IMG/VR virus record: IMGVR_UViG_3300017991_000230
Coordinates: 1-37,047 of that record
DNA from: a virus
Reading direction: 5' to 3' (one strand)
Length of the DNA: 37,047 nucleotides
In this document: piece by piece, positions 2,544-22,752 of the stretch
Layout of the letters: each line of letters begins with the position of its first letter
Numbering within the stretch: the first letter of the stretch is position 1
The notes under the pieces: model-generated
Database searches by the model: none
Seen by the model: the letters and a program-made list of their open reading frames with translations, nothing else
What the model was told of the DNA's origin: nothing
Made by a program: the position numbers and the translations under genes

Positions 2544-3164
2544 ATGGGTAAGAAAATTATACTACATCTATGTGCAGATATCGGTAGCGATAGTAGGGCA
2601 TATCAGCTGGATGAAGACTACGAAGTAATCCGAGTAGGTGAAGATATAGGTGTGGAGAACTACAATCCCCCTGATAACATACACGGTATTATCGCTAATC
2701 CGCCTTGTACAGAGTTCAGTACGGCACGAGGGTTCCACCTAACTGGTGATCTAAACAAGGGTATGTCTCTTGTGGAGGATTGTCTATGGTTAATAGAAGT
2801 ATACGAGCCGAAATGGTGGATATTAGAAAACCCAGCGAATGGAAGATTAAAAGACATACTCGGTCCCCCTAAATTAACTTATCAACCTTGGGAATACGGT
2901 TCTCCTTGGACTAAGAAGACAGCCCTCTGGGGAGAATTCACTATCCCAGAGCCTACCTATAAATGCTGGGAAGATTGCCCTAAGAATGATAATCTGTACG
3001 TCAGGCCGGGACGTGGGAAACCCTCGTTGGCTTTCTTACATAAGTCTGCTATTGAGTTCTTACCAGAGTATCACTGGTGCCGTGATAAAATCAATAATGA
3101 CGCAGACTTCAGGAGCCTATGCTCTTGGGGTTTTGCTCAACAATTTAAGAAGTTTAATCCTTGA
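2544..3164 (+). CDS. Phage DNA cytosine methyltransferase-like protein
   Basis: The 206-residue protein carries a C5-cytosine-methyltransferase-like core. An N-terminal Rossmann start (IILHLCADIGSDSRAY, residues 5-20) would bind S-adenosylmethionine. NPPCTEFS (52-59) contains the catalytic-type Pro-Cys, and ILENPANG (93-100) corresponds to the ENV/ENP motif. A conserved YGSPWTKKTALWGEF segment follows (118-132). It is much shorter than classical Dcm enzymes and lacks an obvious target-recognition domain, as is usual for this phage family. An AGGAG lies 14 nt upstream of the ATG, an unusually long gap. No partner endonuclease is nearby, so protection of phage DNA from host restriction is the likely role (inference). 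Confidence 0.8.
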   Translation: MGKKIILHLCADIGSDSRAYQLDEDYEVIRVGEDIGVENYNPPDNIHGIIANPPCTEFSTARGFHLTGDLNKGMSLVEDCLWLIEVYEPKWWILENPANGRLKDILGPPKLTYQPWEYGSPWTKKTALWGEFTIPEPTYKCWEDCPKNDNLYVRPGRGKPSLAFLHKSAIEFLPEYHWCRDKINNDADFRSLCSWGFAQQFKKFNP

Positions 3165-3441: not shown

Positions 3442-6010
3442 GAAAGAAGAGCTGAAGCCATATCTAAACGGTAATGCTGATCTAATACCTTTACACCACT
3501 GGAATAAGATAGTCAAGCGCAAAGGTAAGCAAGTAGAGCTCGGGAAGACACCCATACAAAAGGGTTGGACCACGGGCGAACGGTGCATGGAAACAACCAA
3601 GAAGAGAATTAAACAAGGTCATAACGTAGGTGTACGTCTTAGCGATGAAGACCTCATTATCGATGCTGATCCACGTAACTATAAGGACGGTGTTGATAGT
3701 CTTGAATTGTTACAAGAATTCCTCGACGTTGATCTTTGGGAAGTGGCACCCACTGTCGTCACAGGTAGCGGAGGTTATCACTTCTACTTCAAGAAACCAA
3801 AGGACTGGAAAACAGTCGGCGCACTACCAGAATATCCCGGTATAGATTTTAAGAGCCAGGGTGGTCAGGTCGTATCAGCAGGTAGTAAACACCCCAATGG
3901 TACTTATTACCTATGGGATGACATGTGTGATGTCCCTTACAACCAACGGCCGGATGTACCTGGTCGCTTACTTAAAAAGTTAAAACGATTACCCCCTAAA
4001 AACCAACCAGACGAAGGAGTCTTAAATAATGACCAGCTCGAACAGCTCTTATCCCAAATACCGATTGAAGATTTTGGAGAAGGAAGTCACGATAAGTGGT
4101 TCCCCCTCATGTGTGCTTGCCATCATGCAACGGGAGGAGCCGGGGTTGAGGTTTTTACCCGTTGGTCAACCTCTGCTTCTGGATTCGAAAGTTCTGCGCA
4201 TGAGATCACTGTTCGTTGGGAGTCTCTGGGAGGCAAAGATGTCAATTATACCGTCAGTACACTATATAAAAACGTTAAGGCTTATGGAGGATCAATTGAC
4301 TTGGTCAGTGCCCAGAGCGACTTTCATGATTTTGCCGATGAGGAAGGACCAAGTGATAAGGTTACTGAGGCTACAGTGGAAGGAGAGGGTCCAGAACTAC
4401 TTGTCGATTTGGGCGACGTCATCGACTCAGGTGCTAGCAGAGATATCCCGGAACACCATAAAGGTATTGCACTCAAACTGGCTGGAGAACTCAGAGACAA
4501 CTCCAGTGACGAAGAAATCGTACGTGCCATCAGATCAGCCATTAACGCTGGAACAATGGAGAAAGCGAAAGCACTGGAAACCATTAAGAAAAATACAGGG
4601 CTAACGAAAGGCACTTTAAATGAGCTCATCAAAGAAGTTAAAGAACGTATCATTACGGATCTCGGGAGAGTTCTTGCCGAGAAAACGCTCGAGGTTAAAT
4701 TTAGACGAGGAAAAGGACTCGTCTTCAACAACACCGGAGAGTTCTGGGCATACAAAAAGAACCACTGGATCCCAGTTACCAAAGAATGGGTAGGTAAGAA
4801 TGTACACAAAGTCTTCGACGAGATGCGTAAACAATTACAAATCGATGTCAAAGAGAACTCCATAGTCACCGAAGCACTTAGTATTCTTTCTAGGATTACC
4901 GCCACCATGGGTGATGCTCTTCGTATGAAAGAGAAACCCTATCCGGTTATTAATTGCCTCAATGGTGAGCTTTGGATTAAAGACACTGGGGAAGTGGAGC
5001 TGAAGCCCCATCGCCCCTCTTCTTGCTTGACCAGGGTTTTGGCCGTGGAGTATCAACCTGGTGCGGATTGCCCGATCTTTAAGAATGCTCTAAAACAAAC
5101 CTTTAAGAACTTTGAAGACGGTGATGATATTATACGTCACTTACAAGAGTTCATGGGATATGTTCTTCATCCAGACAAACAACCTGCTCATTGGTGGTTG
5201 TTTAAAGGTCCAGGTGGAGACGGTAAAAGTACAATTATGAGAATACTGAGCGCCCTACTCGGTGACAGCGTTATAGCTGAAAGTATTGATAGATTCAATG
5301 GAAAGGATAATCATGCTACCGCCGATTTGGTTGGAAAGTTGCTTCTGTACGATGATGATCTTGATAGCGGAACTCGGTTGCCAGATGGTATACTTAAAAA
5401 GCTATCCGAGACCGGAGAACTCACGGCTAATCCTAAATTGGTCAAACCTTATCGTTTTACTAAGGTGTGTACTACTGTTATGTGTTCTAATGGCTTTCCT
5501 AAAACAAAAGATATCAGCCGAGGTTTTCGTCGTCGCGGTATGGTTATTCCCTTTAACAACCCCTTCCATGAGGGGGAAGCAATCCTAGACCTCGTTGAAC
5601 AAGTTACCAGTAAGGAGCTATGTGGTGTTTTAAACTTTGCAATGGAAGGGCTCAAACGGATGCGAGCTCGCTCTAATTTCCAAGAACCTACCAGTTGTAT
5701 AAATGCCAAAGACGAATGGCTTAACGAAAGTAACGTCGTAGCAAGTTATATTAAGGAATCAATCGAACGCACCAATAAGAAGAAAGATAGTGTCTCTCTT
5801 ACCGATGCGTATACTGATTTCAAAACCTGGTGTGATGTACATGGGATTAATCGGCGCCTGACTAATCAACAGTTTCGGCAATCGATGGTTGACATGGATA
5901 TCCATTATGGTGCAATAAGTAATAGGAAGACATTCTTTGGTATTAAACTGGTGCGGGAGGATGAGGATGGTTTGGATGACTTTGACACTTTAGAAGATGA
6001 GGAGTTGTAA
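3431..6010 (+). CDS. Replicative primase-polymerase / SF3 helicase (P4/D5-type)
   Basis: This is the main replication enzyme. The N-terminal third looks like a bifunctional primase-polymerase: an IDADPRNYKD acidic motif near residues 77-84 and GSGGYHFYFKKP near 111-122, then a GGQVVSAGSKHPNG segment. The C-terminal half is a D5/P4-type superfamily-3 helicase, with Walker A FKGPGGDGKST near residue 592, LLYDDDLDSG as Walker B near 637, and the SF3 motif C-like TTVMCSNGFP near 680. A TTG at 3422 would extend the protein by three residues, but only GTG 3431 is well spaced from the GGAGGGGG run (3414-3421), so it was chosen (859 residues). It would prime and unwind phage DNA together with host or absent phage factors. 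Confidence 0.9.
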   Translation: MNIKKEELKPYLNGNADLIPLHHWNKIVKRKGKQVELGKTPIQKGWTTGERCMETTKKRIKQGHNVGVRLSDEDLIIDADPRNYKDGVDSLELLQEFLDVDLWEVAPTVVTGSGGYHFYFKKPKDWKTVGALPEYPGIDFKSQGGQVVSAGSKHPNGTYYLWDDMCDVPYNQRPDVPGRLLKKLKRLPPKNQPDEGVLNNDQLEQLLSQIPIEDFGEGSHDKWFPLMCACHHATGGAGVEVFTRWSTSASGFESSAHEITVRWESLGGKDVNYTVSTLYKNVKAYGGSIDLVSAQSDFHDFADEEGPSDKVTEATVEGEGPELLVDLGDVIDSGASRDIPEHHKGIALKLAGELRDNSSDEEIVRAIRSAINAGTMEKAKALETIKKNTGLTKGTLNELIKEVKERIITDLGRVLAEKTLEVKFRRGKGLVFNNTGEFWAYKKNHWIPVTKEWVGKNVHKVFDEMRKQLQIDVKENSIVTEALSILSRITATMGDALRMKEKPYPVINCLNGELWIKDTGEVELKPHRPSSCLTRVLAVEYQPGADCPIFKNALKQTFKNFEDGDDIIRHLQEFMGYVLHPDKQPAHWWLFKGPGGDGKSTIMRILSALLGDSVIAESIDRFNGKDNHATADLVGKLLLYDDDLDSGTRLPDGILKKLSETGELTANPKLVKPYRFTKVCTTVMCSNGFPKTKDISRGFRRRGMVIPFNNPFHEGEAILDLVEQVTSKELCGVLNFAMEGLKRMRARSNFQEPTSCINAKDEWLNESNVVASYIKESIERTNKKKDSVSLTDAYTDFKTWCDVHGINRRLTNQQFRQSMVDMDIHYGAISNRKTFFGIKLVREDEDGLDDFDTLEDEEL

Positions 6011-7922: not shown

Positions 7923-8318
7923 ATGTCAACAAAACAACTGTCTACTGAAAACCTCAGAAAACTAATACATGAGGGTAAGGCCAACGACCCTCTCGCTTTC
8001 TTTGAAGCTATAATGTCTGGTCAAGACCCCAGGCAGACATCTAAAATATTTGACCTAGTACACGAAATTAATGACTTTTCCGGGATGCCAGACGAGTCAG
8101 ACTGGAAAGAAATCGTAAAGTGGGTTGACGAAAATTATAAATACGGCACCGTAAGTATATCTGAATCCCACTCGGCCGCTAAAAGTCTAGCCGAATATCT
8201 ACACCCCAAACGTAAACAAGTAGATATTAACAGCGGCTCATCGGCTACTGCTAAACTCCCCGAACTAACTGCCGAAGAAGTAGAACTCTTTAAGGAAGAA
8301 TGGAATGAAGAGTTCTGA
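7923..8318 (+). CDS. Candidate terminase small subunit of the core phage
   Basis: The 131-residue protein directly precedes the large terminase and overlaps it by 14 nt, the usual place of a small terminase. It is mostly helical. The middle (DESDWKEIVKWVDENYKYGTVSISESHSAAKSLAEYL) could include a DNA-binding helix pair, and the C-terminus is acidic (ELTAEEVELFKEEWNEEF), as in small subunits that contact the large subunit. No family signature is certain, so the call rests on gene order and size. A strong inverted repeat sits just upstream of its start. Confidence 0.5.
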   Translation: MSTKQLSTENLRKLIHEGKANDPLAFFEAIMSGQDPRQTSKIFDLVHEINDFSGMPDESDWKEIVKWVDENYKYGTVSISESHSAAKSLAEYLHPKRKQVDINSGSSATAKLPELTAEEVELFKEEWNEEF

Positions 8319-9156
8319 CGACAACGGAGGACGCACGTATAATTGGACGGACAACGAGCTTCGTATGATTAAATACATGTGCGAGAACGATGGTATGCAG
8401 TTTCTTCGTTACTTCTTTAAACTTAGAGAAGGTAACACAATGGTCCGTAATTGGCACCACTACGTGATTGAATACGTTCTCCAGAAAGTCTATGATTGTA
8501 AGATCAATCGCCTTATTATAAACATACCGCCGGGATACACCAAAACAGAGCAAGCTGTAATTAACTTCATTGGTCGTGGTCTTGCTAAAAACCCTCGATC
8601 TAAATACATCCATACTTCTTACTCTGCATCTCTAGCCGCCGACAATAGCGGTAAGGTAAGAGAGATGATTAATTTACCAGAGTACCAAGAACTATGGCCG
8701 ATGGTCCCCAAGATGGACACCGACTCCAAGTCCAAATGGTTCGTAGAGCAAGGTGGTGGAATGATGGCGACAGCCGCCGGAGGACAGATAACAGGTTTCC
8801 GAGCAGGAAGAATGGAAGACGGATTCACTGGTGCTTTTATCATTGATGATCCTGTTAAACCTGACGATGCGTATTCTGAGGTACGACGAGCGGGTATCAA
8901 TAATCGTTTCAATAACACTATGCGTTCTCGCCTCGCCGTGGAGACAGTCCCCATGATTGTAATCATGCAGAGGATACACGAAGATGACTTATCTGGTTAT
9001 CTTCTTAAAGGCGGGTCCGGTGATATGTGGGATCATCTTGTTATCCCTGCAATGTTATCTGAAGAAGAGCTTACCAAAGAATACGATAAAGACTATACAC
9101 ATGGTCGTAAGATAGATATTAACGACGTCCTCGCCGAATTAAGGGGTGCGGCCTAA
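8305..9156 (+). CDS. Terminase large subunit, ATPase half (separate gene)
   Basis: The 283-residue product holds the packaging motor. It has a P-loop variant IPPGYTKTE (residues 74-82), Walker B FIIDDPVKPDD (179-188; catalytic Asp pair 181-182) and a coupling motif IVIMQRIHEDDLSG. It ends with a charged linker and TAA overlapping the next ATG (TAATG). The nuclease domain that normally completes large terminases is in the following frame. The motor would translocate DNA into proheads at the portal. The ATG lies within the end of the previous gene. Splitting a terminase between its two domains is unusual; a sequencing frameshift is the main alternative. Confidence 0.85.
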   Translation: MKSSDDNGGRTYNWTDNELRMIKYMCENDGMQFLRYFFKLREGNTMVRNWHHYVIEYVLQKVYDCKINRLIINIPPGYTKTEQAVINFIGRGLAKNPRSKYIHTSYSASLAADNSGKVREMINLPEYQELWPMVPKMDTDSKSKWFVEQGGGMMATAAGGQITGFRAGRMEDGFTGAFIIDDPVKPDDAYSEVRRAGINNRFNNTMRSRLAVETVPMIVIMQRIHEDDLSGYLLKGGSGDMWDHLVIPAMLSEEELTKEYDKDYTHGRKIDINDVLAELRGAA

Positions 9157-9899
9157 TGTTATTCTCTACCCTAGATATCGCTGAGCTATGTCCCTTAGAG
9201 ATAACACCCAATAGCGCTCTATGGCCGTTCAAACAGAGTATTGAGAAGTTAGAGGTGCTCCGCGAAGGAGACCGATACACATATGCGAGCCAGTATCAGC
9301 AGAATCCATCCCCCCTCGGCGGTGGTATGTTCAAGGACGCTTATTGGAAATACTACGATGAGCCCCCGCCGAGGTTCGATATAATTCGCATCTACGGGGA
9401 CACGGCCCAAAAGACTTCTGAGAAGAACGACTACAGTGTTTTCCAATGCTGGGGTAGATACGAGAACAAACTTTACCTTATAGATCAAATAAGAGGTAAG
9501 TGGGAAGCCCCTCAACTAGAGTCGGCGATGTACGAGTTCTGGTTAAAACATAAGCCGAATCTACATCGCCCTAATGGGGCCTCGTGCGTTAAGATCGAGG
9601 ATAAGAGCTCCGGTTCTTCTCTCATACAATCTATCCAAAAGAACTATTCCATACCTATTGAGCCTATTCCACGAGATAAAGATAAGGTATTCAGGGCGAT
9701 GGGTGTGGTTAAGTATTTCGCTTCTGGTTACATTTATCTTCCTGCTCATGCGGATTACATTAGCGATTATAAAGATGAGTTTCGTAAATTCACACCGCTA
9801 ATGACACACGCACATGATGACCAAATAGACCCAACTATGGATGCCGTTGAGGATTTACTTATTTTCGAGGACTTCTTATATACGGATTCAAACGCATAA
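9156..9899 (+). CDS. Terminase large subunit, nuclease half (separate gene)
   Basis: The 247-residue product begins with the linker typical of mid-terminase (PNSALWPFKQSIEKLEVLR, then YASQYQQNPSPLGGGMFK) and continues as an RNase H-like headful nuclease. Likely metal ligands are Asp82 in IYGDTAQK, Glu148/Asp149 in VKIEDKSSG and Asp221/Asp222 in HAHDDQIDP. Together with the upstream ATPase gene it equals one standard terminase of about 530 residues. The start ATG overlaps the upstream stop as TAATG, which favours termination-reinitiation. Its own end overlaps another tiny ORF in the same TAATG fashion. Confidence 0.85.
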   Translation: MLFSTLDIAELCPLEITPNSALWPFKQSIEKLEVLREGDRYTYASQYQQNPSPLGGGMFKDAYWKYYDEPPPRFDIIRIYGDTAQKTSEKNDYSVFQCWGRYENKLYLIDQIRGKWEAPQLESAMYEFWLKHKPNLHRPNGASCVKIEDKSSGSSLIQSIQKNYSIPIEPIPRDKDKVFRAMGVVKYFASGYIYLPAHADYISDYKDEFRKFTPLMTHAHDDQIDPTMDAVEDLLIFEDFLYTDSNA

Positions 9900-10039
9900 T
9901 GGAAGTCCTAGGATTATTAGAATGGACAGCATTGAAGCTCAGGAGATTATTCTTCAGGACTAAATGTTTAATGGGTGACTTGAGTTTCACAATGCGGCTT
10001 ATATCATATAAGATAAATAGATTACGGAGAAAGAAATGA
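9899..10039 (+). CDS. Tiny basic ORF bridging terminase and portal genes
   Basis: A 46-codon frame begins at a TAATG overlap with the terminase stop and ends in an ATGA overlap with the portal start, so it exactly fills the only gap in the packaging operon. The peptide is strongly basic (it ends RLRRKK and has about a dozen Lys/Arg), with hydrophobic residues between. Such precise nesting is hard to explain by chance. It may be a real small protein or mainly a means of keeping ribosomes coupled to the portal start. No homolog is recognised. Confidence 0.5.
   Translation: MEVLGLLEWTALKLRRLFFRTKCLMGDLSFTMRLISYKINRLRRKK
9998..10012. promoter_or_regulatory. 15-bp palindrome CTTATAT-C-ATATAAG
   Basis: A perfect 7-bp inverted repeat with a single central base lies 24 bp before the portal ATG, inside the tiny ORF. 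It could be an operator or simply an AT-rich coincidence. Confidence 0.25.
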
Positions 10040-11505
10040 CCTCTGCTTTAACACGTTTAAGGAATGAAGTTGCGATGAAAAAGATCAACAGTGGTCAGGC
10101 CGCAATCTTCACCGAAGTAAGAGACGGACTTGAGAACTTAGTTTCCAACTTCAATACGGAGATGGACCCTCGCGCATATAGTAAGTTTAAGGACACACGT
10201 CAACTTCAGTTGGCTGGTGCTCGTGAAGAACTAACAGCTATGTATAAAACTAATTGGTTAATCGGTAAGATTATCGACATTATACCAAAAGATATGACCA
10301 GGGAATGGAGAAACTTCACTTCTCCTGATCTTGAACCAGAGCAGATAGAAGAGATAGTAGAGCTGGAAAAACACTTAAAGCTTCGTAAGTATTTCCGTGA
10401 GGCTCATCAATGGGGTCGGCTCTACGGTACTGGCTTTATCGTTATGAATATTGATGATGGGTTAAATAACCCCGAAGCCCCGTTGATTATTGAAAAACTC
10501 AAACCTGGATGTATTAAACATTTCAAGACTATAGACCGTTACTATATCGACAATAATCAGGTTGAGCCTATCCAAGACCCGCTAAATGAGAACTTCGGGA
10601 GACCTGAGTTTTATCGTATCCGTAATACAAATGTTAAGATCCATTATACGCGATTAATCCGCTTCGATGGTGTCGAGCTACCTTACGAAGCGTATCGTAG
10701 GAATGCTTATAACCATGGTACTTTTATCGATCGCCTCTACGACATGATCCTAAACTTCGAAACAGTTACCAACGGAACCGCGACAATGGTACATGAGACC
10801 AACACTGATGTAGTTAAGGTAGAAGGTCTCATGAACTACTTACAATCCCCTGAGGGGGAAGCCAAGGTACGTAAACGATTCGCCATGGCAAAGATGCTGA
10901 AGAGCTTTAATAATATGATGCTCCTAGACTCTAAGGAAGAATATCAAAAGAACAGTAATACTTTCGCAAGTTTACCCGAGCTCATGGATCGTTATGGCTT
11001 ATTCCTTTCGGCAGCTACCGATGTCCCAGCGACTCGCATGTTAGGTAGCTCGGCATCGGGCTTGAACGCCACTGGTGAAGGTGATCTTAAAAACTATTAC
11101 GATAATATCTCTGCTACCCAGGAAGCCGACTACGCTCCTAAGTTAGATTACTTAGACCGTATCTTAGAGAAGCACCTTGGTTTTGAAGAAGATACCATAC
11201 AGTACGAGTTTAATTCCTTATTCCAAATGACCCCCCAGGAAACAGCTACTCTTAATAAGACCAGAGCCGAGACCGATAACATCTACTATAACATGGGTGT
11301 TTTAACAGAATCCCAGATTGCAAAGCAACTCAAGCAAGATGGTATTTACGATAATATAACTGACGAAGATATTGAAGAATTAGAAGAGCTGGAGGACTTA
11401 GATGAGTTTACTACCGATCCCTCGGAACCTTCGGATACCCCTGAACAAGAGATTGAAGAAGGAGAGGAAGAAGACAGCGAATCCGATACGGATACCGAAG
11501 AGTAA
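10036..11505 (+). CDS. Portal protein (DUF1073 type)
   Basis: The 489-residue protein matches the DUF1073 portal family in length, position after terminase and recognisable blocks (YKTNWLIGKIIDIIPKDMTR near residues 70-89; HQWGRLYGTGFIVMNIDDG; a late MLGSSASGLNATGEGDLKNY segment). It forms the dodecameric ring at the capsid vertex, through which DNA is packaged and to which the neck binds. An AACGGAG-like site precedes the ATG, which overlaps the tiny ORF's stop. The last 35 codons encode an acidic tail (about residues 455-489), and the next gene begins inside it in another frame. Confidence 0.9.
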   Translation: MTSALTRLRNEVAMKKINSGQAAIFTEVRDGLENLVSNFNTEMDPRAYSKFKDTRQLQLAGAREELTAMYKTNWLIGKIIDIIPKDMTREWRNFTSPDLEPEQIEEIVELEKHLKLRKYFREAHQWGRLYGTGFIVMNIDDGLNNPEAPLIIEKLKPGCIKHFKTIDRYYIDNNQVEPIQDPLNENFGRPEFYRIRNTNVKIHYTRLIRFDGVELPYEAYRRNAYNHGTFIDRLYDMILNFETVTNGTATMVHETNTDVVKVEGLMNYLQSPEGEAKVRKRFAMAKMLKSFNNMMLLDSKEEYQKNSNTFASLPELMDRYGLFLSAATDVPATRMLGSSASGLNATGEGDLKNYYDNISATQEADYAPKLDYLDRILEKHLGFEEDTIQYEFNSLFQMTPQETATLNKTRAETDNIYYNMGVLTESQIAKQLKQDGIYDNITDEDIEELEELEDLDEFTTDPSEPSDTPEQEIEEGEEEDSESDTDTEE

Positions 11506-16628: not shown

Positions 16629-16974
16629 TGTGGCTGAAGCATTGGATATGGATACCGCCGAGATAGTAACGGTTGAGAGGAATACCGGAACTATTGTAGA
16701 CGGATTATGGGTTCCCGGTACACCAACTACATTTAAGACAATGTGCTCGGTACAACAACCTACTTACCAGCAATTGAAAGCACTTGGTGGGGGTGAGCGT
16801 CAAGATGATACTCGATTCTTCATATCCAAGAAACCTGTTCGTACCGCTCAAGATAAAGACGGATTACCTCCTGATATTATAAGATATCAAGGTAATCGTT
16901 ACAAACTGGTTCAGAACGGTGATTGGTCCGTTTATGGCCATAATAGTGCAATAGGTGTTAGGGTTGACGAATGA
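16618..16974 (+). CDS. Head-tail connector / tail terminator-adjacent protein
   Basis: The ATG at 16618 is preceded by GAGG with a 6-nt gap and overlaps the previous gene by 11 nt, giving 118 residues. A strand-rich N-terminus (AEIVTVERNTGTIVDGLWVPG) and a C-terminal FFISKKPVRTAQDKDGLPPD resemble short collar proteins of Mu-like and DUF3383-sheath myophages. The exact family is uncertain; position between gp10-like and neck terminator genes supports a neck role. Confidence 0.65.
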   Translation: MPINVAEALDMDTAEIVTVERNTGTIVDGLWVPGTPTTFKTMCSVQQPTYQQLKALGGGERQDDTRFFISKKPVRTAQDKDGLPPDIIRYQGNRYKLVQNGDWSVYGHNSAIGVRVDE

Positions 16975-19900
16975 CGATACTGGACGAAACTATCAACAAA
17001 CTAATGCGGGATTCTGTTAATATTATCCTAAATGTAACTAGCACTATAAGGGCTAATCAGAAAGACCTTATTCGACCTAAAGGACCATATGCAGATGTAC
17101 ATGTTTCTAGTGATTTGAAAATAGGATGGGAAGAAAGAAACGTAGAGAACGAAGGCGATTTTGACTTAAAATATACGGCTGAAGGTTTACGAGAAATAAC
17201 CGTTACTTTTAATTTCTACAGAAGTACCGAGAATGAATCAGCACTAGATAGAGCTCGTAAAGTACATATCGGTTTTGCAAGAGAAACCATAAACGAAACA
17301 TGGAAGGCGGCCAAGGTAGGTCTATTAGATCGCACTGAAGTATTATCTGCAGACGAAACAATAGAGGACGGTTGGGAAGACAGAGCTAGTTTCGACATAA
17401 CACTTTCGGCAGTCGGTACTGATGAAGAAATTATTTGCGCTATTAATGAAGTACTCATCACAGGTGTTTACGAATATGCTGATCGTCAAGTTCCAATAAA
17501 TATTGCGGTACCGGAACAAGAAGTCGCACCTAGCTTTGTGACTGATCCCGTTCTAAGCGGAGATGCTTATCCAGGCGGTACAATAAGTACGACACGAGGA
17601 GTTGCGACAGGAACATTACCCATAACATATACCATAGAGTTCTTGATGAATGGTATTGTTGTTCAGTCAGGTGCTAGTTTAACTTATGTTGTTCAGCCTG
17701 CCGATTTAGGTAAAATTGCTGAAGTTAGATCTACTGCTACAAATAATGTTGATTCAGATCAAGCGTTGTCCAATCAACTTACTATTGTTGAGGCACCTTC
17801 TGCCCCTGAGTTTACTCAAGACCCAACGATATCTGGATCAGGTAATATCGGTGAGCTTGTAACAGCTACCCCCGGTATTGTTACTGGTAATCCTACTCCC
17901 GTAGTTACCCGCCAATGGTATTTTGAACCCACTGAAGTCATTGTAGGTGAAACAGGATTAACATATACGCCTCAAGCTGGAGATGAAGGTAAAGAACTGT
18001 ATTATGAAGAAACTGCAACAAGTATAGAAGGCGTTGCTACTGCTAGTTCTAATCGGATAACTATTGCAAGCGGTGTCGTTTGGTCACCCTTACCCCATGA
18101 TCCTGACTTCGGTGTTTATAAAGATCGCGCAAGCACCCAGGCTTTAAACTGGCCTATCAACCAGATTCGGCGCAGTTCGGATAACGATGTTGCCCTGATT
18201 GGTAACGATGGTGTTGATACAGTTGATGGTTATAGTTATTGGACCAACGACCCTACTGATCCGCAGGGTGGTGTGGATCAGAATGTACTACCTCTAAGTT
18301 CATGGGGTGGTGATGCCGGACTATCAGGGGACACAATTACAGACTCATCAAATAGTGTAACACAGAATTTAAATGAAGTGACCGCGATAGATTCGGGAGC
18401 ACAGTTTGCCGAGTTTAGATTCGATGTGGAGACGTTAGACTCTAATATAATTCATATTGACGCGAACTTAACAGGGGGTGCGACCAACTTCGCAGGATTA
18501 GACTTTGACCCTGTTAGTGGTGGGTATGAGAAATCGGGTGTGTCTTTTTATGGTGAGCCAATTATAAGCAAGGTAGGTAACAAGTACACCATTTCAATTT
18601 TTGTCGAAAACACAGGTTCCAACTCGAACATGTTAAATCGCATATATCCTGCCTATAGAGCCACATTGGGTGGGGCGATTGATGTAACGCTAACAGGGTC
18701 TATTGATGTAACGGGGATTCTGATCAATGCATACCCCGCAGGATTGCGATACAACTCTTACAATGGTTTCATGGGCAGGGACGCTTATATATACCCAGGA
18801 TGGTCCGATTCATCGTATTGGAGCCCTACCGCCGGTATGGGTGTTACAGATACAACTTTGACAGACAACTCTGTGATCGCCGCCGATCAAATAAGCCGTG
18901 AAATAGAATATGGCCTACCTGTCGGCACTTTCACATGGTTAATGAAAGTGGAAAAGAAAAATTCAGTCAGCCCCATTATGGCAGTTCAGATGGTTGATGA
19001 AGTCACGAGAAGATTGAATTTTTACTTTGATCCGTTCACGGGTGATTATTCGCTGGGTATAAATTCTATGAACCAGAACGTTTTGAGTATAACCACTGAT
19101 GGGATATCCTGGTATATCTTATTCAGTTGGGATTACCTAACGGCTAATAACTATGTTCGCACTTTTATATATCCTACATATGGAACAACTCTAGGCGTTC
19201 AGGATGTAACCGTCACAGGTTCACTGGATATGGAGATACAAGAATCATTCTTTGCTAGGAATGATAAAGCCTACGCTCCTCTCATTTTCGATCAGTGGAG
19301 TGCGCAAGCAGAGACCGTCCCGGCATATACGTCTTGGACTAATACTGGTTTTATCTTAGCTGGTGATACTATCACAGATAATGACACAAGTACGTCTGCC
19401 CGACTTTTTTATTCCCAGTACGCAAAAGATGCTGATAGCGCATTCAGTTTGAAATTCCATCTCGATTATGAAGATGATGAAACGGTGTTCCCGAATTTCC
19501 GCATCCAGTTCACTGGTGCTTCGACTCGGAATAAAGACATCAGTATCAGCAAGAAAACAGGTGAATACGTTATCAACGATGCGTTCAATTCTACAATTGT
19601 GAAAGTGTCAGGAAACACAGTGGATGGTTGGGACGTTGAGATATACACCGAAGATGGGGTTAGTAATACAAACGTTTTCGTGTATTTCTGGCCAGCTTAC
19701 TCGGCTACAAACGGCGGTGCGGAAGATAGAACGTTGACGGGTGCGATAACGGTACCAAATGCAGATATTGAAATAAATGAGTGGCCCTATGGTTTTGGCT
19801 TCTCTCAGGGAACCGAATTGAATCAGCCTCTCGCGTTGGATGGTGGCTCTGTTATTACAGATAATGCAAAACCGATGGACTCAGGATTGCTATTGCCTAA

Positions 19901-20327
19901 TGGTGATAACTTCACAATTGGTTGTATTTTTAAAGCAAATCAATTATTTGACGGGACAAACTTCCTTTTTGGTTTTGGTGACGAGTTTAATCAGGACTTT
20001 AAGGTTTTTTCAACAACTTCTCTTTTGGCGTTCAGGGCAGACCCAGGTAATCAAACAGCCTCGGTAGCAAAGACATCTTTTGATGATGATAAAAAGCACT
20101 TTCTGGTGTGTGCTTACGATTCTAGCGACACCCTAAAGGTTTATCTTGACGGTTCAGAAATAACAACAGGGGGATCGATAACGGGAACTATTTCTTTCGG
20201 AAATTACAGCCTGAAGTTTTCTGGCTCTGCTGTATTCGACCACGTATTTACTGACTTACAGAACACATGGACCGCACAGCAAGTGTTAGATAATTACAAT
20301 TGGTTCGTAGCCCGAGGTGCTTTATGA
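16971..20327 (+). CDS. Giant neck protein: neck-terminator domain fused to Ig-like, jelly-roll-like and LamG-like modules
   Basis: This is an 1118-residue fusion. Residues 1-180 look like a phage neck/tail-terminator domain (LREITVTFNFYRSTENESAL; WEDRASFDITLSAVG), which alone is the usual gene here. Two Ig-like repeats follow (about 183-274 and 275-365, each beginning with a Pro-Glu/Ala-rich linker and an SGxxxxG start). Next come three related modules of about 150 residues (around 430-600, 616-760 and 785-940) that share GDTITDN-type starts and end in IYPxY...TLTGSI strands, like phage jelly-roll or carbohydrate-binding modules. A concanavalin/LamG-like domain (about 975-1118, KVYLDGSEI strand) ends the protein. 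It would project adhesive arms from the head-tail neck. Domain limits are by eye. Confidence 0.75.
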   Translation: MTILDETINKLMRDSVNIILNVTSTIRANQKDLIRPKGPYADVHVSSDLKIGWEERNVENEGDFDLKYTAEGLREITVTFNFYRSTENESALDRARKVHIGFARETINETWKAAKVGLLDRTEVLSADETIEDGWEDRASFDITLSAVGTDEEIICAINEVLITGVYEYADRQVPINIAVPEQEVAPSFVTDPVLSGDAYPGGTISTTRGVATGTLPITYTIEFLMNGIVVQSGASLTYVVQPADLGKIAEVRSTATNNVDSDQALSNQLTIVEAPSAPEFTQDPTISGSGNIGELVTATPGIVTGNPTPVVTRQWYFEPTEVIVGETGLTYTPQAGDEGKELYYEETATSIEGVATASSNRITIASGVVWSPLPHDPDFGVYKDRASTQALNWPINQIRRSSDNDVALIGNDGVDTVDGYSYWTNDPTDPQGGVDQNVLPLSSWGGDAGLSGDTITDSSNSVTQNLNEVTAIDSGAQFAEFRFDVETLDSNIIHIDANLTGGATNFAGLDFDPVSGGYEKSGVSFYGEPIISKVGNKYTISIFVENTGSNSNMLNRIYPAYRATLGGAIDVTLTGSIDVTGILINAYPAGLRYNSYNGFMGRDAYIYPGWSDSSYWSPTAGMGVTDTTLTDNSVIAADQISREIEYGLPVGTFTWLMKVEKKNSVSPIMAVQMVDEVTRRLNFYFDPFTGDYSLGINSMNQNVLSITTDGISWYILFSWDYLTANNYVRTFIYPTYGTTLGVQDVTVTGSLDMEIQESFFARNDKAYAPLIFDQWSAQAETVPAYTSWTNTGFILAGDTITDNDTSTSARLFYSQYAKDADSAFSLKFHLDYEDDETVFPNFRIQFTGASTRNKDISISKKTGEYVINDAFNSTIVKVSGNTVDGWDVEIYTEDGVSNTNVFVYFWPAYSATNGGAEDRTLTGAITVPNADIEINEWPYGFGFSQGTELNQPLALDGGSVITDNAKPMDSGLLLPNGDNFTIGCIFKANQLFDGTNFLFGFGDEFNQDFKVFSTTSLLAFRADPGNQTASVAKTSFDDDKKHFLVCAYDSSDTLKVYLDGSEITTGGSITGTISFGNYSLKFSGSAVFDHVFTDLQNTWTAQQVLDNYNWFVARGAL

Positions 20328-20851: not shown

Positions 20852-21625
20852 ATGAGTTTCCAGCCTAATAGAATTGGACCAGGTGTATCTCCGGACGGAA
20901 TCGTACCCGTAGTACCGTGGACACCTGATCAGATAACAACAGCCGGATGGTATGATGCCTCAGATTCAAATACCATAACCGAATCAGGTGGATTAGTTTC
21001 TCAATGGGATGATAAGAAATCCGGAGGGATTAACTTCACACAACTAACTGGTGCGAATCAACCTACAACTAATAGTAGGACGATAAATAGTTTGAATGTA
21101 TTGGATTTCGACGGTACTAATGATCAGATGATAAAAGATGCGCCTGCTTTAACTGACGGTGCGTTTATACTAGCATTATATGAACCTGATTCAGACAACA
21201 CTTATGGGTTACTAGGTTATAATACAAATCATTATGATCTAAATTCAAACGGTGGTTCTTATCCTTCTATCTTTAGAAATACTAGGTTAGCGAACCTCCC
21301 ACTTGGTATACAATCAACAGGTGTACAATTATTAGGTTATAATGCTTTATCAACAGGTCCTAATTACGATATCCATTACAACGGAGAAAAAGTATATGCA
21401 GGGACATCTGCTTTTGTTTTCCAAGGCACTGGTGGTCGGAGAATCGGAATAAGTAACTCAGCGGGTATCCGTTATGATGGTACTATCGCAGAAATAATTA
21501 TGATAGATGCTTATACTTCACAATCGGATATAGAAAAATGCGAAGGGTACTTGGCGCATAAATGGGGAGTAACTTCAATTTTACCACCTGGTCACCCGTA
21601 TAAAACGGAAGCACCTACCGTATAG
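20852..21625 (+). CDS. Lectin-like (concanavalin/LamG fold) surface protein, paralog 1
   Basis: The 257-residue protein carries WYDASDSNTITESGGLVSQW (residues 31-50), LNVLDFDGTNDQM and a C-terminal CEGYLAHKWG...LPPGHPYK motif, hallmarks of concanavalin-like lectin modules found in phage fibres and bacterial surface proteins. A second gene at 21,943 has the same order of motifs, so the two are tandem paralogs separated by one small gene. The N-terminal 25 residues are proline/glycine-rich and may anchor it to the neck or head. Glycan binding is inferred from the fold. Confidence 0.7.
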   Translation: MSFQPNRIGPGVSPDGIVPVVPWTPDQITTAGWYDASDSNTITESGGLVSQWDDKKSGGINFTQLTGANQPTTNSRTINSLNVLDFDGTNDQMIKDAPALTDGAFILALYEPDSDNTYGLLGYNTNHYDLNSNGGSYPSIFRNTRLANLPLGIQSTGVQLLGYNALSTGPNYDIHYNGEKVYAGTSAFVFQGTGGRRIGISNSAGIRYDGTIAEIIMIDAYTSQSDIEKCEGYLAHKWGVTSILPPGHPYKTEAPTV

Positions 21626-21634
21626 GGGATAATT

Positions 21635-21943
21635 ATGACAGAATATTATGTATTCCAAACTAAAGATAAAGCTGACGAATGTCTAGCGTTTATAAATTCA
21701 TCGAATTTCTTCCCTATTGAAGGTAGGGTCAGCGGTGCTCGTGCTCCGGAAGATAGGCAGAAAACTACTAAATGGGCCGAGGCATCTATGGAAATGAATT
21801 CTGGTGAGTTTGCTATCCCCAGGGTTCCTTCTAATCTTCTTGATTATTGTTCTTGCCCTCAAGAGAGCCGTGATTCTTTCTTAGAAATATACGGTCAAGA
21901 CATAAGAACATTACAACCTTCGGATTTTGTTCAAGGGGAATAA
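21635..21943 (+). CDS. Small protein between the two lectin-like paralogs (possible fibre chaperone)
   Basis: The 102-residue protein begins YYVFQTKDKADECLAFINSS, then has an alpha/beta body and the short motif TTKWAEASMEMNSGEFAIPR. Small proteins with this start are common beside phage fibre genes, where they act as assembly chaperones, but the family is not certain. It overlaps the second paralog by one base (TAATG) and follows the first after 9 bp, so all three are co-translated. Confidence 0.55.
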   Translation: MTEYYVFQTKDKADECLAFINSSNFFPIEGRVSGARAPEDRQKTTKWAEASMEMNSGEFAIPRVPSNLLDYCSCPQESRDSFLEIYGQDIRTLQPSDFVQGE

Positions 21944-22752
21944 TGACTTTTCAAAATCTAACAGCAGGTATCGGAGCAATCCCATCAACAGGTTTCTTTA
22001 CTGAAGTTGATGTGACACCACCTGAACAATTTTGGGACCCAAGCTTCATTAATACTCAAATATGGTTAGACGCATCAGATTCAAATACTATTATTGAATC
22101 AGCTGGTTTAGTTTCTCAATGGTCAGATAAATCAGGTAAGTCTAATAATGTAGAACAACCAATCGGTTCCGAGCAACCCCTAACGGGTTCTAGAGTACTA
22201 AATAATTTGAATGTTCTAGATTTCGCATCTGACAAATCTTTAGAGCGATCTAATTTATTCCACGATCCTGACTTTATATGGGTCGGTGTTTGGGATGTAG
22301 ACTCTGGGCCATGTTTGATGAGTCAAACCGATGCGCAGGGTATGAACATGTATGATAATTCAATACAGCTTCAAACCGACGGTAATACTAATTATATTGC
22401 AGGTGCACAAACCGGACCAACTATTATTTCCTACGACATAGATAGAACAGGCTTGTCCCAAGCGAGTGTTTATTTGAACGGTACGTTAGACATAACGGAC
22501 GTATTAACAGTAGATATCGGAGAAGGTCGCTTCAGAATAAATGCAAACCGAGTCGGTGGATCGAACGCAGACGCAGGTCATTGTGAAATAATCGTTACTA
22601 ATTTACGTAGTGATAATATTCGTCAACGGATCGAAGGCTACCTTGCTTGGAAATGGGGTTTAGAAGCGAACCTGCCTGTTGGTCATCCATATAAATCTGC
22701 CCCGCCTACTGTGGATAGTGATTTTAATAACGATTATAACAACGACTTTTAA
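21943..22752 (+). CDS. Lectin-like (concanavalin/LamG fold) surface protein, paralog 2
   Basis: The 269-residue protein repeats the architecture of the gene at 20,852: a WLDASDSNTIIESAGLVSQW block (residues 43-62), LNNLNVLDFASDKSLERS, a strand YLNGTLDITDV and an ending IEGYLAWKWGLEANLPVGHP. Between these blocks the paralogs differ greatly, as expected if the glycan-binding face has diversified. The last residues (DFNNDYNNDF) are a low-complexity Asp/Asn/aromatic tail. It is likely a surface-exposed adhesin. Confidence 0.7.
   Translation: MTFQNLTAGIGAIPSTGFFTEVDVTPPEQFWDPSFINTQIWLDASDSNTIIESAGLVSQWSDKSGKSNNVEQPIGSEQPLTGSRVLNNLNVLDFASDKSLERSNLFHDPDFIWVGVWDVDSGPCLMSQTDAQGMNMYDNSIQLQTDGNTNYIAGAQTGPTIISYDIDRTGLSQASVYLNGTLDITDVLTVDIGEGRFRINANRVGGSNADAGHCEIIVTNLRSDNIRQRIEGYLAWKWGLEANLPVGHPYKSAPPTVDSDFNNDYNNDF

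Follow-up and report, generated by a model that had tools for sequence, protein, structure and literature searches.

A phage large terminase encoded as separate ATPase and nuclease genes in a group of metagenomic contigs

ATPase and nuclease halves in two reading frames

Two consecutive open reading frames (ORFs), A and B, of IMG/VR virus record IMGVR_UViG_3300017991_000230 (37,047 bases, analysed at full length and called the window below) are the ATPase and nuclease halves of a large terminase (TerL), encoded as two genes. It is highly probable that A and B are real, separately initiated genes that jointly replace the one-piece enzyme. An earlier sequence-only reading of this DNA had given the coordinates and lengths of both ORFs and a TAATG junction with a one-base stop/start overlap, all of which were exact on re-reading. 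The features of the locus are as follows.

8305..9156, plus strand: ORF A, 283 amino acids, the large terminase ATPase half (PHROG 4758, E 3.6e-60; PHROG 38, E 4e-51)
9115..9153, plus strand: C-terminal tail of A (DINDVLAELRGAA), a predicted helix within the lengthened linker region of the split lineage
9140..9145, plus strand: Shine-Dalgarno-like AAGGGG within the 3' end of A, about 10 nucleotides (nt) before the ATG of B
9154..9158, plus strand: TAATG junction, the A stop and the B start with one base in common
9156..9899, plus strand: ORF B, 247 amino acids, starting MLFS, the RNase H nuclease half (PF17289, E 3e-14; PHROG 38, E 7e-56)

As had been proposed, the motor motifs were all located in the first frame and the nuclease ligands all in the second. 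A contains a Walker A-like PPGYTKTE (residues 75-82), the Walker B DD (181-182) and MQRIHEDD, and B contains the RNase H ligands YGDTAQ (D82), IEDK (D149) and HDDQID (D221/D222). Across the aligned split relatives, these catalytic residues showed little or no variation. A matched PHROG 4758 and PHROG 38, and B matched PF17289, PHROG 38 and PHROG 5573; the PHROG 38 profile (length 760) was spanned end to end, first by A (266-477) and then by B (483-703). The model of A (mean predicted local distance difference test score, pLDDT, 75) has a fold matching the ATPase domains of T4 gp17 and P74-26, and the low-confidence model of B (mean pLDDT 55) has a fold matching the nuclease domains of D6E, T4/RB49 and herpesvirus (human cytomegalovirus, HCMV) terminases. 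Since neither half matched a solved structure in a sequence profile search, the fold evidence rests on these predicted models.

Like large terminases of the PHROG 38 type, the pair comprises an ATPase with Walker A, Walker B and the coupling motif and a C-terminal RNase H-like nuclease with acidic ligands, and it is located between the genes of the small subunit (recognised by position and conservation) and the portal. The two domains, which share one polypeptide in that type, here lie in two frames, and B has its own start.

The break had been placed in the inter-domain linker, and this was borne out by the alignment between the HGIPI and LWP regions. About 10 residues separate HGIPI from LWP in ordinary fused relatives (e.g. 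HGIPIEYDLLPGPLWP). In the split clade, A runs on for ∼16-18 residues with the pattern xxNGILxALHGGxxYAF, and B starts ∼20 residues ahead of LWP with the pattern MLFSxxxIxxxCPxxIPxGxPLWP. Long linkers were also found in the nearest fused relatives, L301 and L037, which argues that the linker was lengthened before it was cut.

Relatives with the same break

Loci were collected by viral-contig scans with each half and alignments of each, together with fetched bacterial-genome and phage loci. Both halves were present in 153 non-identical loci, of which 97 were fused and 56 were not; the latter comprised 51 with the same break (the window included), four with another split, and one (L177) of the fused type with an in-frame stop. 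Except for one short match at the end of a contig, A of the 50 split relatives was 62-76% identical to that of the window. In a tree built from A (116 rows), 38 split representatives, including the window, formed one group with a Shimodaira-Hasegawa-like approximate likelihood ratio test (SH-aLRT) support of 95, and the fused L037 and then L301 were the next branches outside it. The median ratio of nonsynonymous to synonymous substitution rates (dN/dS) was 0.058 for A and 0.047 for B (71 non-independent pairs), and both halves are under strong purifying selection. The pairwise identities of A and B were correlated at 0.82.

Close relatives were checked for being all fused with a one-base difference at the break, and the opposite was found, 50 of them being split. 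The same break in 50 relatives of one clade, with differing frames and, in some, genes between the halves, argues that the proposed split is genuine and no error, and makes it very likely that A and B are two polypeptides.

Whole genes were found between the halves in three relatives. In L107 (4375-4899) and L215, an HNH_3 endonuclease gene lies exactly at the A/B junction and starts at the same ATG position at the end of A; in L215 this gene ends in YYAF* and overlaps B through the same motif. In L103 (4818-5431), three small genes separate the halves, the first weakly Rz-like and the third ending in TAATG onto B, like the window. In our reading, the second has a lipoprotein-like start and the third encodes a small membrane-like protein, so that the three may form a spanin/holin-like cassette.

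A second split class was found in four contigs, with the break ∼30 residues earlier, after HHLCLP, and with B beginning M..Y(S/T)HAI(P/S)IEHN. Its members pair as L131 with L133 and L054 with L058.

Second-class split loci: L131, 604-2580; L133, 2476-4037; L054, 748-2632; L058, 3178-4729

As these contigs fall outside the first split clade in both the A and the B trees, at least one further independent splitting event is indicated. The halves of L131 and L054 are separated by 400-465 nt. In L131, an opposite-strand ORF between the halves matched Imm5_like just under the Pfam cut-off.

The nuclease half was also found in other company. In L039, L040, L303 and L304, the nuclease half shares 59-65% identity with B of the window and is fused to an ATPase with just 42-45% identity to A, and this joining of a close nuclease to a distant ATPase argues that the nuclease module has moved between terminases. 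Within the split clade, L005 and L020 share ∼95% identity across most of A and 59-92% across B, with a sharp change from the A-B junction on. Recombination exactly at this junction was not established, since the breakpoints of L003/L009 lie away from it.

Several candidates were set aside. L127, first counted as split, is fused with an early stop near the N-terminus, and the apparent gap between the halves of L111 was due to frame errors inside B. For Escherichia coli phage mEp021 and related prophages, the second split type came under suspicion as the A matches end at residue 251, but their terminases are fused, with a different nuclease, and the Microbacterium, Gordonia, Helicobacter and Cellulophaga hits inspected were also fused. 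In L177, a metagenome-assembled genome (MAG) contig of Hellea sp., an in-frame TAA near 5868 falls within the linker, the terminase being otherwise fused; this stop may be an error, decay or another split.

Start of the nuclease gene and competing explanations

The overlap of A and B measures 11 nt in 45 relatives (mostly ATGCTTTTTAG or close variants), 17 nt in L034 and L035, and 1 nt in the window alone. Relative to the 11-nt group, the A stop lies two codons further on in L034/L035 and ten bases earlier in the window, and the relative frame from A to B is +1 in most relatives and -1/+2 in the window. The B start codon is in the same place throughout (ATG in 49, GTG in one). The conserved feature is thus the B start codon with an upstream Shine-Dalgarno-like stretch, while the A stop and the frame relation vary. 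This stretch is often formed by the codons of Gly-Gly in A. In the window, the anti-Shine-Dalgarno duplex of AAGGGG came to -8.4 kcal/mol, whereas controls within A averaged -2.3; other starts of the window gave similar values to that of AAGGGG. Among the split members, the median pairing upstream of B was -5.1 versus -2.2 kcal/mol elsewhere in A (Wilcoxon p 4e-11, n=37 related, non-independent rows).

The TAATG form is peculiar to the window genome among the A/B overlaps of the split clade. It had been described as used twice more nearby and taken for a reinitiation signal. In fact, seven other junctions of the window carry it (13413, 15757, 20587, 21943, 27481, 31486 and 33747), so that TAATG reflects how genes are ordinarily packed in this genome and is no special signal. 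Because the start of B is conserved, the stop and frame vary, and whole genes lie between the halves in some relatives, the evidence points to B being a separately initiated gene and not the product of a frameshift, an intron or an error.

In the explanation that we favour, the ancestor would have been a fused terminase with an inter-domain linker already lengthened, as in L301/L037. A single cut of the linker would have followed, in which a stop codon arose together with a new start codon preceded by a Shine-Dalgarno-like stretch, and the split would then have been retained throughout the clade. Because ribosomes ending A sit next to the start of B, B is probably translationally coupled to A, which would keep the two chains at similar levels; its translation might begin by true reinitiation or de novo at its own Shine-Dalgarno site. 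Most likely A and B associate non-covalently, perhaps where the helical A tail meets the extended B head, and with the portal, the small subunit and DNA they would make a working packaging and cutting motor. We infer both the physical reassembly of A and B and its stoichiometry, and the pair would be the only working terminase of the phage.

Several observations weigh against this account. The Shine-Dalgarno-like pairing is weak in about one third of the split members, and the L103 contig stops 63 codons into B. The B tree agrees with the A tree in outline, yet in it the window, L037, L301 and L303 come off one fork in no resolved order, so that a single origin of the split is supported by the A tree and left undecided by the B tree. 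The split members are all metagenomic contigs, known from sequence alone; no isolate in the phage collection was ≥60% identical to either half, and the terminase was fused in every isolate inspected. Finally, positions 751-1568 of the window hold another small subunit gene (TerS; GP3_package, PHROG 606) and a broken TerL fragment of 115 amino acids, which belongs to a different large terminase family (PHROG 979) and ends in a stop. This second terminase is likely a non-functional remnant.

Among the alternatives, it is possible though unlikely that the halves work separately and form no stable unit, A being the motor alone and B a cutter that is free or recruited by the portal. On its own, the ATPase domain of D6E terminase forms pentamers (PMC5727402), and nuclease halves of the same type are also fused to distant ATPases (L039, L040, L303 and L304), but A and B remain adjacent and their identities are correlated. 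A related proposal, which we regard as rather improbable, is that there is no fixed one-to-one unit. A alone would then be the translocating ring, B would be made and recruited separately, its supply or recruitment would control cutting, and phages could exchange the motor and cutter genes independently. As a possible side effect, such phages might evade Avs proteins and other host sensors of the whole terminase.

Programmed ribosomal frameshifting, fusing A and B into one full-length protein, was seriously considered and is very improbable. The A frame of most relatives ends in TTT TAG, where a +1 slip would enter the B frame, and TTT (or CTT) stands in the P-site before the stop in the 11-nt overlap group; a similar +1 slip is known from the bacterial prfB gene. 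However, the window ends in GCC TAA and needs a -1 rather than a +1 shift, and no canonical slippery heptamer was found in the last codons of its A. L034 and L035 end in CTC TAG, and whole genes stand between A and B in L107, L215 and L103. The TTT itself follows from the conserved B start MxFS and the shared stop, and the conserved start codon with its GTG variant points to initiation. The conserved shift site and fixed frame relation of a programmed frameshift were not found, the frame relation of the window being different from that of its relatives, and a +1 shift at TTT TAG was rejected as the general mechanism.

A self-splicing intron or intein that rejoins the halves, as in the ICP1 and Jug phages, is scarcely to be expected here. 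Introns of terL are known (PMC10448857, PMC12363816), and an HNH gene lies between the halves in two relatives, but the ORFs overlap in the window and 47 relatives, which leaves no room for an intron, and in L107/L215 the HNH gene and B each have their own start. An Rfam search (E up to 1) of L107, L103, L131, L054, L133, L058 and the window locus, L156, returned no match, and thus no self-splicing intron between exons was seen in these loci. Almost no credence is given to a sequencing or assembly error, or a decayed gene, whose true form is one frame: several frame errors inside B of L111 show that errors occur in such material, but the same split recurs in independent contigs and different sequence contexts, with a conserved B start codon and dN/dS near 0.05 in both halves.

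Genome context and known systems

The neighbouring genes of the packaging module are as follows.

7923..8318, plus strand: putative terminase small subunit, 131 amino acids, overlapping the start of A by 14 nt
10036..11505, plus strand: portal protein (Phage_portal_3, PF06381, E 5e-99), the next gene of the packaging module

The putative TerS returned no Pfam or PHROG match; it is conserved directly upstream of A in nearly all split relatives (36-56% identity), and its C-terminus (LTAEEVELFKEEWNEEF) resembles that of the GP3_package-type TerS in L131/L133. The order TerS-A-B-portal-MuF-protease is kept in the split relatives as far as the contigs reach. As the window contains sheath and baseplate genes, it belongs to a contractile-tail phage. 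A remnant or a chimeric join may account for its left 1.6 kb, and ORF 1-198, in our reading, may be a piece of an IS607-type serine recombinase.

Other genes of the window were also recorded. A short protein (2544-3164) matched PHROG 757, a family of phage DNA methyltransferases; its match to a C-5 cytosine methylase spans only ∼54 residues. A protein of 1118 amino acids (16971-20327) has a tail terminator domain in its first 150 residues and no strong match in the remainder. Two adjacent genes (20852-21625 and 21943-22752) matched the same virion protein family, PHROG 10356, and are probably a duplication.

To our knowledge, TerL is universally regarded as one polypeptide, and packaging models assume that force is transmitted across the hinge between its two domains. 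TerL with both domains has been described as universal in jumbo phages, and the nuclease domain as universal across tailed phages (PMC7824862). The domains are joined by a flexible hinge, and the C-terminal domain is needed for translocation (PMC8589836); the linker of the D6E terminase has 12 residues (PMC5727402). A lineage without the covalent link, together with at least one further independent split class, would offer a natural experiment on the need for a tether and a ready-made system in which the motor and the nuclease can be studied apart. To annotation and marker-gene pipelines, such phages may look as if their terminase were truncated.

Databases already list half-length terminases without remarking on them. 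PHROG 4758 (243 amino acids) and PHROG 5573 (250 amino acids), compared here as families, are named "terminase large subunit", match A and B respectively over most of their length, and come without any account of a split motor. No report of a permanent terL split was found in a literature search limited to open-licence papers, which is weak evidence of absence; the two separate genes treated in Arthrobacter papers are lysis genes and not terminase.

The nrdA of Aeromonas phage Aeh1 is an essential enzyme made as two chains, a state created by homing endonuclease insertion. The likeness lies in the two-chain enzyme and in the HNH genes between the terminase halves of L107/L215; the difference is that most split members have no endonuclease there, and HNH insertion is not shown as the cause of the split. 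The terL genes of Vibrio phage ICP1 (PMC10448857) and of the Jug phages (PMC12363816) are interrupted by introns and spliced. They resemble the split lineage in being a gene in pieces, sometimes beside homing endonucleases, but they are rejoined by RNA splicing, whereas in the split lineage no intron was found in the loci searched and each half has its own start. Compared with these spliced genes in the literature found, the split described here is, as judged from its ORFs, permanent. The nearest known systems are the one-gene terminases (PHROG 38/Terminase_6C, PF17289) of Iodobacter phage phiPLPE, Pseudomonas phage KPP23 and Vibrio phage XM1, which have the same domains, motifs, order and neighbours, with TerS before and the portal after, at about 44-53% identity. 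In all isolates of this type that were inspected, the terminase is one fused gene, whereas two genes and a longer linker region mark the split lineage.
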